From a virus, in the IMG/VR virus record IMGVR_UViG_3300036760_000314, positions 1 through 40,854 of that record: a DNA stretch of 40,854 nt, one strand, 5' to 3'. The position numbers and the translations under genes were made by a program. Shown one piece after another: positions 3,475 to 29,720 of this stretch. The notes under the pieces are model-generated. The model was given only the letters and a program-made list of their open reading frames with translations, made no database searches and was not told where the DNA came from. How positions within the stretch are numbered: position 1 is the stretch's first letter; each line of letters begins with the position of its first letter.

Positions 3475-3956
3475 TGGCCGCCGCCTGTCACACGGGCAAC
3501 GACGACGCGCAAGCCGCCGATCAAATCGCCAGTGGCCTCGAGGATGTTGAGGTTCCGCTTGAACCGGCGCTGCTTGGCCGCCGCGTAGGCCTTCGACAGG
3601 GGGGCGAACGGAGATCCGCTCTTGTTGCGCTGGGCGCCCACATTGGCCTCGATGGCCTCGATCATCATCTTGCCGATCTGGCGGAGCACCGCCTCGGTGA
3701 TCCCTTCTGGGCTCTCCCACGCCTTCTTGACGACCCGTCGGATCTCAAACAACCGCTCTTTCCCGATGTAGTACGGGTTGCGGCGGGCGTCGGCCTGCAC
3801 GTGCGCGATCATGGCGTTCTCGTCGGCTCCGCGGCGGCCGCCCGTCATCACCGAGACCACGGCGTCACCGGAAGCAAGGGGTCGCATGCGCCGCTCAATG
3901 GCCCTTTGCAGTGCCCCGGCGTTGATCTCGACCGCGATGTGCGGCGGCGGAATCAT
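3471..3956 (-). CDS. Tail completion / virion morphogenesis protein (HK97 gp10 or Mu G-like)
   Basis: A 161-residue protein. The C-terminal half carries the pattern of phage virion-morphogenesis proteins: GSPFAPLSKAYAAAKQRR (about 115-132) followed by LNILEATGDLIGGL (about 136-149), close to the 'S P F a P L ... tG.L' signature of the gpG/gp10-type tail completion family. The N-terminal half has an amphipathic helix (ALQRAIERRM). It starts in an ATGA overlap with the terminator-like gene and ends in an ATGA overlap with the next small gene. Its last codons (VARVTGGGQ) are encoded by one copy of the 18-bp repeat, so the repeat is tolerated inside coding sequence here. Confidence 0.7.
   Translation of the reverse strand: MIPPPHIAVEINAGALQRAIERRMRPLASGDAVVSVMTGGRRGADENAMIAHVQADARRNPYYIGKERLFEIRRVVKKAWESPEGITEAVLRQIGKMMIEAIEANVGAQRNKSGSPFAPLSKAYAAAKQRRFKRNLNILEATGDLIGGLRVVVARVTGGGQ
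3483..3500 (-). repeat. Intercistronic 18-bp repeat, copy A
   Basis: The minus strand reads GTTGCCCGTGTGACAGGC. It lies at the 3' end of the tail completion gene, 8 nt before the ATG of the next gene. It is identical over 18 bp to copies B and C. Confidence 0.85.
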
Positions 3957-27466: not shown

Positions 27467-27498
27467 GGCGCGGACCGTAGCACGCGAGGTGCCGCGTG

Positions 27499-28116
27499 AT
27501 GCGCGAGCGGCCGATCCTCTTCTCCGCTCCGATGGTGCGCGCGCTTCTCGCGGGGAAGAAGACACAGACGCGGCGCATCCGACGGCAGGCGCTCGACGAA
27601 GACGCGACGTGTCCCTACGGCGAGGCGGGCGATCGGCTGTGGGTGCGCGAGACGTGGGGGATTCGAGGGTCACACTGGTGCAACGCAAGCCCCGACATTC
27701 ATGATGTGCAGGTGGCATATCGCGCCGACGCCGCCGCACGCGTGGTGCCGATCTCATGCGCGCAGTACGACGCCAACATTGGCAAGCAGCGGTGCCGCGC
27801 CGACTGCGATGGCGACCCGGGTGGAAAGCACGGCGACGAACTCACGGCGTTTTGGCGGAAGTGGCGCCCGGCGATTCACATGCCGCGCTGGGCCTCGCGC
27901 ATTGAGCTCGTGGTGGTGGGCGTCGGCTGCGAGGCGCTGCAAGACATCAGCGAGGAGGATGCCAGGGCCGAAGGCGTGGAGCCATTCGACGACGGCGACA
28001 CGTTCAAGAACACCTACGCCGTGTATCGCGACCTGTGGAACTCCATCAACGGCCAGCGGGCGCCGTGGGGAGCTAACCCGTACGTGTGGGCCATCGAATT
28101 CAAGGTGCTCGCGTGA
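27499..28116 (+). CDS. ASCH/PUA-like phage protein
   Basis: A 205-residue protein, first gene of the plus-strand operon. The start MRERPILFSAPMVRALLAGK and then KTQTRR are the well-known opening of a phage family related to ASCH/PUA domains. Other family marks are DRLWVRETW (about 50-58), HMPRWASRI (about 129-137), ALQDISEEDARAEGV (about 149-163) and the end LWNSINGQRAPWGANPYVWA. These folds bind RNA or modified bases; the exact job in phages is unknown. A GAGGT ribosome site lies 9 nt upstream. Its stop overlaps the RuvC-like start by GTGA. Confidence 0.75.
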   Translation: MRERPILFSAPMVRALLAGKKTQTRRIRRQALDEDATCPYGEAGDRLWVRETWGIRGSHWCNASPDIHDVQVAYRADAAARVVPISCAQYDANIGKQRCRADCDGDPGGKHGDELTAFWRKWRPAIHMPRWASRIELVVVGVGCEALQDISEEDARAEGVEPFDDGDTFKNTYAVYRDLWNSINGQRAPWGANPYVWAIEFKVLA

Positions 28117-28604
28117 TCCTGCTCGCAATCGATCCCGGCACGACCGAAAGCGCGTGGGTGCGCTACGACACGATCGCGCGCTCGCCGCTCGTGTGGGCCA
28201 AGGAGCCAAACGCCGACGTGCTCAAGCAGCTTCACAGCGACCCAGCGCCCGGACGCCTTGGCGACCCGCACCACGTCGTGATCGAGATGTTGCAGAGCTA
28301 CGGCATGCCCGCCGGGCGCGAGATGTTCGAGACGGCGGTTTGGATCGGACGCTTCATGGAGGCCTGGCTCAACGGAACCGACGTGCAGACGATCTCGCGC
28401 ATGTACCGCCCGACGGTGAAGGGCCACATCTGCGGCGACGCGAAGGCCAAGGACGCGAACGTGCGGCAGGCGTTGCTCGACCGCTACGGCGGGAAAGAGG
28501 CCGCCATCGGCAACAAAGCGAAGCGCGGCCCCCTTTGGGGCATGAAAGCTGATGTCTGGGCAGCCCTCGCACTCGCCATCACATGGAGCGAGACGCACCA
28601 ATGA
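28113..28604 (+). CDS. RuvC-like Holliday junction resolvase (GTG start)
   Basis: A 163-residue RNase H-fold nuclease. Acidic active-site positions are Asp7 (LAIDPGTTES), Glu58 (VVIEMLQSYG), and near the end Asp114 (KDANVRQALLDRYG) and Asp147 (GMKADVWAALALA). It would resolve recombination or replication intermediates before packaging. The GTG start is chosen because it overlaps the stop of the ASCH-like gene and puts the DPG motif at residue 7. The last 25 residues are echoed, 19 identical, in the small ORF after the HNH gene. The stop overlaps the HNH start by ATGA. Confidence 0.82.
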   Translation: MILLAIDPGTTESAWVRYDTIARSPLVWAKEPNADVLKQLHSDPAPGRLGDPHHVVIEMLQSYGMPAGREMFETAVWIGRFMEAWLNGTDVQTISRMYRPTVKGHICGDAKAKDANVRQALLDRYGGKEAAIGNKAKRGPLWGMKADVWAALALAITWSETHQ

Positions 28605-29134
28605 GCGGCCGCGTTTGCAGCCAGTGTCTGACCGAGAAGGACGCCTCCCATTTCACTTGGCGCGCAGACCAGAACTACCGACGCCTCACGTCGCGCTGCC
28701 ACGAGTGCAGGAAGGCCAACTACAAAGAGAACCCACATAGGACCAGGCAGCGTTCGCGGGACTATTACTACGCCCATCGCGACGAGGTGGGCGCCAAGGG
28801 GAAAGAGAAGCGCCGAAGCAATCCCGCGCGCGAGCTGGTGCAGGGGGCTCGCAGGCGGGCTCGCCTACTTGGGTTGCCATTTGATCTCACTGAGGCCGAC
28901 GTTGCTATTCCTTCGTCATGTCCGGTGCTCGGCATTCCACTCGCGGTGAACAGTGGTGTGTGTGGACCAAACAGCCCGACCCTCGATCGGGTCGTGTGTT
29001 CCGGCGGATACGTTCGCGGCAACGTCCTGGTAGTCAGTTTCCGAGCGAACACGATCAAGAGCGACGCCACGATCGATGAATTGCGCGCCGTCCTGGCCTT
29101 CTACGAAACCGCCACTGCGGCGAGGGCTGCATGA
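28601..29134 (+). CDS. HNH endonuclease, free-standing homing type
   Basis: A 177-residue protein. The N-terminus has a zinc ribbon (CSQCLTEKDASHF...CHECRKANY). A basic linker follows (PHRTRQRSRDYYYAHRDEVG). The C-terminal nuclease part has CPVLGIPL, then SPTLDRVVCSGGYVRGNVLV and SFRANTIKSDATIDELRAVL, the signature of a widespread phage HNH family. Such genes spread by cutting a site in a related genome that lacks them. It lies exactly between the RuvC gene and a second RuvC tail, coupled to both by ATGA overlaps, so it looks like a mobile insert that carries a replacement 3' end for its target gene. Confidence 0.82.
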   Translation: MSGRVCSQCLTEKDASHFTWRADQNYRRLTSRCHECRKANYKENPHRTRQRSRDYYYAHRDEVGAKGKEKRRSNPARELVQGARRRARLLGLPFDLTEADVAIPSSCPVLGIPLAVNSGVCGPNSPTLDRVVCSGGYVRGNVLVVSFRANTIKSDATIDELRAVLAFYETATAARAA

Positions 29135-29223
29135 CAGGGCCGCTGTACGGCATGAAGGCAGACGTGTGGGCGGCGTTCGCCCTCGCGGTGACGTGGGCGG
29201 AAACGAAGGAGGCGACTCGATGA
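29131..29223 (+). pseudogene. Displaced second copy of the RuvC C-terminus
   Basis: A 30-codon frame (MTGPLYGMKADVWAAFALAV, then TWAETKEATR). It matches the last 25 residues of the RuvC-like protein (GPLWGMKADVWAALALAITW, then SETHQ) at 19 positions and includes the catalytic Asp of KADVWAA. DNA identity is visibly lower than protein identity, so it is not a recent exact duplication. ATGA overlaps join it to the HNH stop and to the methyltransferase start. It is probably the original end of the resolvase gene left behind when the HNH cassette entered with its own version. Confidence 0.75.
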
Positions 29224-29720
29224 CGAAGGCGCGCAAGATGCCGGCGCAGAAGCCAGGCAAGAGCTTCCAGTCGTACGCCACCCCGCTCGCATTCGTCGAG
29301 ACGGTGGAGCGGGAGATCATCGGCTGCGACTTCGCGCTCGACCTGGCGGCGACGAAGGACAACACGAAGGCGCCGAGGTGGCTCGGGCCGGGGTCGCCCA
29401 TTGCGACCGATTCCCTCAAGGCTGATTGGGCGGGGACGCTCGACGGGGATTGGGGGTTCCTGAATCCGCCGTACGCCCACATTCGACCGTGGGTGGAGAA
29501 ATGCGCCGACGAGGCGAAGAAGGGCGCGCGGTTCTGCCTGTTGGTGCCGGCGTCGGTCGGGGCGGATTGGTTCGCGAGGTACGTGCACCGGCGCTCGATG
29601 GTGCTGGCGTTGCTGCCGCGATTGAGCTTCGACGGCAAGGCGCCTTTTCCGAAGGACACGGTGCTCTGCGTGTACGGGCAGCCGGGGCGCGGGTTCGATT
29701 GTTGGAGGTGGAAACCATGA
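29220..29720 (+). CDS. Phage DNA N6-adenine methyltransferase (PF05869-like)
   Basis: A 166-residue methyltransferase. SYATPLAFVETVEREIIGCD leads into FALDLAATKDNTKAPRWLGP, then GDWGFLNPPYAHIRPWVEKC with the catalytic NPPY (about residues 82-85), and GARFCLLVPASVGADWFARY. This order and length fit the small phage Dam-like family. The ATG overlaps the stop of the RuvC-tail ORF. It is the second adenine methyltransferase of the genome; the other is D12-class. It probably protects phage DNA from restriction or marks it. Its recognition site cannot be read from sequence. Confidence 0.85.
   Translation: MTKARKMPAQKPGKSFQSYATPLAFVETVEREIIGCDFALDLAATKDNTKAPRWLGPGSPIATDSLKADWAGTLDGDWGFLNPPYAHIRPWVEKCADEAKKGARFCLLVPASVGADWFARYVHRRSMVLALLPRLSFDGKAPFPKDTVLCVYGQPGRGFDCWRWKP

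Follow-up and report, generated by a model that had tools for sequence, protein, structure and literature searches.

Two diverged 3' ends of a ruvC-like gene enclose an Endo VII/HNH-type nuclease gene in a virus: a candidate homing cassette that carries a replacement gene end

Homing endonucleases of phages are usually encoded between genes, in introns or in inteins. In fungal mitochondria, mobile ORFs (mORFs) with carried C-termini have been described at atp6, atp9, cox2 and nad3 of Glomus and at atp6 of Allomyces (PMC3630166). F-CphI possesses an Endo VII-type domain with DHHRN catalytic residues, including D-H, and insertion of the psbA intron at the site is known to protect from self-cutting (PMC6083498). 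For T4 mobA and the 50-nt bypass insert of gene 39-60, the adjacent sequence is thought to protect and to limit damage (PMC5009743).

In this work we focused on a 40,854-nucleotide stretch of viral DNA (IMG/VR record IMGVR_UViG_3300036760_000314, positions 1 to 40,854), hereafter called the window, in which a putative nuclease gene lies between the end of a ruvC-like gene and a second, diverged copy of that end. As in the fungal mORFs, an endonuclease ORF follows an in-frame, presumably foreign C-terminus, with the presumed native C-terminus downstream (PMC3630166). This layout was met in the window and at three further loci (L030, L354 and L456). We consider it fairly probable that the element is a free-standing homing endonuclease bringing along a diverged 3' end to replace that of its target, ruvC.

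The locus and its two ruvC tails

The features of the locus are given in Table 1. ATGA overlaps chain the ruvC-like gene to the nuclease gene, the nuclease gene to a 30-codon ORF and this ORF to the Dam gene, the last overlap lying at 29220-29223. The gene ends, the overlaps and the 30-codon frame are as the first-pass annotation had described them.

Table 1. Features of the ruvC-nuclease-dam region (window coordinates)
Feature	Coordinates	Strand	Evidence or remark
phrog_874 gene, function unassigned	27496..28116	+	PHROGs E=2.5e-60; upstream neighbour of ruvC-like gene
ruvC-like Holliday-junction resolvase gene, GTG start	28113..28604	+	phrog_1770 E=3.8e-18
Resident (in-frame) ruvC tail GPLWGMKADVWAALALAITWSETHQ, presumed donor-derived	28527..28604	+	third-position GC 16/24
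Endo VII/HNH-type nuclease gene, N-terminal CxxC...CxxC	28601..29134	+	phrog_3322 E=8e-31
Leftover second ruvC tail MTGPLYGMKADVWAAFALAVTWAETKEATR, 30-codon ORF	29131..29223	+	family tail HMM 45.0 bits
Dam-type N6-adenine methyltransferase gene	29220..29720	+	PF05869 E=2.7e-15; downstream neighbour

The ruvC-like product falls within the phrog_1770 family and qualifies as a RuvC-fold Holliday-junction resolvase. Its AlphaFold2 model, obtained with 40 sequences, has a mean pLDDT of 92.6, gives a TM of 0.72 against E. coli RuvC 1hjr and matches the RuvC proteins of D. radiodurans, T. thermophilus and E. coli with E values from 2.5e-08 to 8.9e-08. D7, E58 and D114 are invariant in the alignment of 40 sequences; D147 is present, and some other members have H there. 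In the predicted fold the tail forms the last helix (residues 148-162), with D147 just before it. We take D147, by comparison with RuvC, to be the last active-site acid. Its codon (28551-28553) lies within the repeated part and is copied at 29161-29163, so that the residue is indeed duplicated, as had been claimed; the label 'last catalytic Asp' is borrowed from RuvC, since relatives have either D or H at this position (KAD or SSH).

In an ungapped alignment of the two tails starting at GPLWG/GPLYG, residues are identical at 19/25 positions and bases at 50/75, the residue count being the same as that noted earlier; likewise, identity is lower for DNA (67%) than for protein (76%). By codon position, identity is 20/25, 23/25 and 7/25 for the first, second and third positions, respectively. 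A family tail profile, built from relatives with the window left out, scored the 30-codon ORF (i-Evalue 5.8e-12) above the resident tail (38.6 bits), and another tail-profile search gave the ORF 47.6 bits. As a control, each ruvC tail was compared with the DNA behind the next genes, over 610 ORF ends at 338 loci; the window ranked 1/610 with a score of 113, the 99th percentile being 37. These profile scores and this rank argue that the repeat is not due to chance, and the second tail copy is real and undecayed.

Where both tails specify the same residue, the codon is identical in 10/46 cases, whereas the codon use of loci with similar GC predicts 17.0 (P=0.016); tails are no more alike than unrelated family members, and perhaps less. 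Such synonymous divergence is consistent with a foreign origin of the tail. It may also reflect selection against re-cutting, although differing base composition of donor and recipient gives the same effect.

The nuclease matches, besides phrog_3322, the endonuclease VII family phrog_1035 (E=1.1e-23), and keeps all residues that are invariant among 13 relatives. It contains D129-R130 (window 28985-29000), R130 standing at the position of Endo VII H41; throughout the phrog_3322-type family the invariant D precedes R, K or Q, in contrast to the D-H of Endo VII and I-HmuI. Assignment to the DHHRN enzymes (Endo VII/F-CphI type) was rejected, as D129 is kept but R130 replaces H41 and the aligned phrog_3322-type family contains no conserved His; for the same reasons 'HNH' is used here as a family label, which does not assure nuclease activity. 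A predicted structure from 3 sequences was discarded as a poor model (pLDDT 59.7), and a PDB profile search with the nuclease returned no match. In phages, relatives of the nuclease adjoin or lie near genes for DNA polymerase, ribonucleotide reductase and exonuclease, which are usual neighbourhoods of homing endonucleases.

Nuclease genes behind ruvC at other loci

Relatives were collected by scans of viral and bacterial contigs, to which seven annotated phages were added, resulting in 475 records, 356 of them distinct; the survey is a sample, limited to the best 80 matches per scan. Single-protein scans yielded no close relatives of the window ruvC: among the matches listed, the nearest in phages had less than 40% identity and the best overall 56-59% (body). 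A degenerate DNA pattern for the tail motif GMKADVWAA matched no other viral contig.

A nuclease gene lies straight after ruvC in 5 of the 356 distinct loci listed (the window, L030, L354, L456 and L164), so that a conserved gene is found with the nuclease beside it and, in relatives, uninserted, as is typical of free-standing homing endonucleases. At all of these except L164 (4/5), a leftover tail follows the nuclease. In L030 the resident tail ends in LAVAVTYEEMERRSVA and the nuclease is followed by MAVAVTYADTRQSEAA, of 15 residues each; this nuclease (NUMOD4+HNH_3) belongs to a family unrelated to that of the window. The same DNA is also present in an isolate, on a genome contig (L090) from a strain of Alkalilimnicola ehrlichii, and L030 is therefore not a metagenome chimera. 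L354 and L456 both carry phrog_3322 Endo VII-like nucleases, placed between YAVGVTFYDLYIKKKEGF and YAVGVTYHDLYIKPQQ in L354, and between GFSKDQWSAAAVGVTYLD and the partly decayed GNSKDNNRAAMAVGTTCLD in L456. In L164 (909-1564) a NUMOD4-HNH_3 nuclease directly follows an actinobacterial ruvC with no leftover tail, so that the insertion was clean or the remnant has since been lost.

In the comparison over 610 ORF ends, L354 ranked 2 (score 63), L456 8 (37), L030 11 (34) and L164 179 (23). Even with the window excluded, three of the four adjacent-nuclease loci fall in the top 11/610, with a binomial probability of about 2e-5. The scores of L456 and L030 are weak by themselves, and become convincing through the position of the copies directly after the nuclease and in register with the ruvC end. 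HNH hits farther downstream of ruvC, at seven loci, showed no tail copy within the stretch scanned. Over 31 loci of the window's nuclease family, the tail of the neighbouring gene was repeated only at two, both of them ruvC loci, and seven annotated phages had no such repeat. The three ruvC-linked phrog_3322-type nucleases (window, L354 and L456) are mutual best hits, yet they do not group in the nuclease tree, whose resolution is too low for a ruvC-specific lineage to be either supported or dismissed.

Candidate tail repeats at L026, L239, L257, L339, L341, L378 and L442 were ascribed to low complexity, shared ribosome-site DNA or chance. Downstream of ruvC, L239 (3750-4030) has a low-complexity ORF with GCNATG-type repeats (Ala-Met/Ala-Leu), followed by a duplicated ribosome site and gene start. 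In L354 a short antisense ORF, ribbon-helix-helix-like (MRKKFTTTLDEELIKSIKIKAIEENTDVSKLLEKMIKDYLARKEG), lies between ruvC and the nuclease gene (3504-3640); judged by this resemblance, the cassette may carry its own regulator.

Two further loci have two tails around ORFs for which no known family was recognised. In L156 (3477-4030) a 168-aa ORF is followed by an exact 22-bp repeat of the ruvC tail (TCTACGCCCATCACGTTCTCAA), located about 517 bases downstream of it; in L015 (3400-3740) the tail VAVTWSDGQKT recurs about 215 bases downstream as VAVTWSDAQKT, fused to an 84-aa ORF. Relatives with two tails and no HNH gene, which the first-pass annotation would have taken as refuting its insertion model, do occur (2/356 loci) and partly count against it. 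Given these layouts around non-nuclease ORFs, two tails alone do not prove a nuclease mechanism; recombination can also produce the arrangement without a nuclease, and genes of other kinds can be accepted at the ruvC end with a duplication of this sort.

Origin of the two tails

Third-position GC in the window is 0.90-0.91 in the ruvC body, 0.67 in the resident tail and 0.72 in the nuclease gene, then 21/23 in the leftover tail and 0.89 in Dam. The resident tail differs from the ruvC body with p=0.0045, and the value of the nuclease gene is lower than in 12 other stretches from the same phage (p=5e-6). Values as low as that of the resident tail occur in some 7% of 24-codon segments elsewhere in this phage, so that the argument depends mainly on the nuclease and on where the shift lies. 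At the other loci the shift is a weak trend (L030) or is absent or reversed (L354 and L456).

Joining the ruvC body of the window to the leftover tail gives an in-frame empty site that scores 194.8 bits versus 189.6 for the resident protein, and the joined site beats the resident score at 3/4 loci (window, L354 and L030). At the same three loci the residues found in relatives weakly favour the leftover; in L456 they point the other way, the leftover fitting relatives worse than the resident tail and looking decayed. It had been proposed that relatives lacking the nuclease should resemble the small ORF more than the present ruvC end. This is weakly borne out at the nucleotide level, where the small ORF is favoured in 7 of the 8 nearest relatives with a tie in one, but base composition confounds the nucleotide comparison, protein identity is nearly equal and the relatives reach at most 59% (body). 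The surveyed ruvC loci include no empty site in a close relative. Overall, these comparisons favour the leftover being the old native tail.

The mobile unit would then consist of a diverged ruvC tail, a stop and the nuclease ORF. On entry it would join ruvC in frame near codon 139, between GNKAKR and GPL, where the donor tail would restore the active-site helix and the recipient's own tail would be displaced behind the nuclease with its old Dam overlap retained. In phages lacking the insert, the putative nuclease would cut the conserved 3' end of ruvC; repair would copy the cassette, with ruvC as the left homology arm and the tail copy as the right one. Because the donor tail is synonymously diverged, ruvC would still work, and the cut site would no longer be matched. 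The anatomy of the cassette, its recurrence, the divergence and, in the window, the change in composition are observed; mobility, cutting and self-immunity are properties that we infer for it.

The main rival, owing to L015 and L156, is recombination without homing, in which crossovers between phages would often fall in the conserved ruvC tail and the nuclease would be only one possible passenger. By single-crossover entry of a circle or by mosaic exchange, any gene behind a foreign tail could be inserted, and the 168-aa and 84-aa ORFs of the two loci show this layout with no recognised nuclease. Leftover tails, however, follow 4/5 adjacent nucleases versus 2 of about 330 other loci tested, and 4/6 two-tail loci hold nucleases, from two unrelated families. 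We regard this explanation as rather unlikely, although it deserves more weight than the remaining ones. An ancient tandem duplication affecting the ruvC 3' end within one lineage, with later insertion of a nuclease between the copies and independent drift of both, predicts the same gene order, and the two tails of L015 do have high DNA identity. Third-position identity in the window is nevertheless saturated while the protein is kept in both copies; a copy that is not translated or not used would be expected to decay, whereas the small ORF outscores the resident tail; the resident tail and the nuclease are alike in composition and unlike their flanks; and no relative with two tails and no insert was seen among the surveyed loci. 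A duplication of this kind is accordingly hard to credit. The earlier preference for an old replacement by a diverged tail over a simple duplication is in line with the saturated third positions.

Least probable of all, if barely so, is that the small ORF is a selected functional peptide or translational coupler, for instance one that bridges nuclease and Dam or regulates the resolvase. The ATGA overlaps on both of its sides and its intact motif would suit such a role, but the L456 copy is decayed, and the lengths and start points of the leftovers vary between loci.

The best account is still, in its core, that of the first-pass annotation, namely a homing nuclease that entered the ruvC 3' end with its own tail and left the old one as a mini-ORF; its basis now includes the three further loci, one with an unrelated nuclease, and the shift in third-position GC within the window.

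Comparison with known homing systems

If this account is true, it shows how a homing element can occupy coding sequence of a useful gene whose function is kept, with neither intron nor intein, and how distant phages come to exchange gene ends. According to the model, the nuclease should cut the joined empty site but not the resident tail.

Among phage systems, the T4 Seg/Mob and F-CphI free-standing homing endonucleases also adjoin conserved phage genes, and F-CphI shares the Endo VII-type domain with the window nuclease; unlike the window, they have no carried replacement coding tail in the accessible parts of the two reports (PMC2988022, PMC6083498). With T4 mobA, too, a homing endonuclease entered a phage gene; there gene 39-60 is split and its insert bypassed, whereas in the window the gene is restored by a replacement tail (PMC5009743). 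No phage precedent for a carried coding tail was found in the openly accessible literature, an absence that is not proof.

The proposed cassette also resembles engineered HomeR drives, in which a nuclease cassette targets an essential gene near the end of its coding sequence and carries a re-coded 3' end that restores this gene (PMC7968924). These drives are CRISPR-based and work in flies, so that the analogy is one of logic, with no common descent (PMC7968924). Tentatively, at least two unrelated nuclease lineages may have produced a natural phage counterpart of a home-and-rescue drive, in which the synonymously recoded catalytic 3' end of ruvC rescues the target and blocks re-cutting, the duplicated tail acting as a second homology arm between distant phages. 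If so, the logic of engineered rescue drives would have a precedent in nature.

The closest likeness is to the fungal mORFs. The two atp6 tails share 63.5% of bases and 91% of residues (PMC3630166), compared with 67% and 76% for the tails of the window. The fungal nucleases are of the LAGLIDADG or GIY-YIG type and mitochondrial, whereas those behind ruvC are Endo VII-like or NUMOD4/HNH_3 and occur in phages and prophages; the target also differs, being a recombination nuclease. On account of these other nuclease families and of the phage and prophage records, we do not file the ruvC cassette as an mORF, although it would work like one. By analogy, the tail-carrying layout is one already known from fungal mitochondria, and its phage setting is a variant of it.
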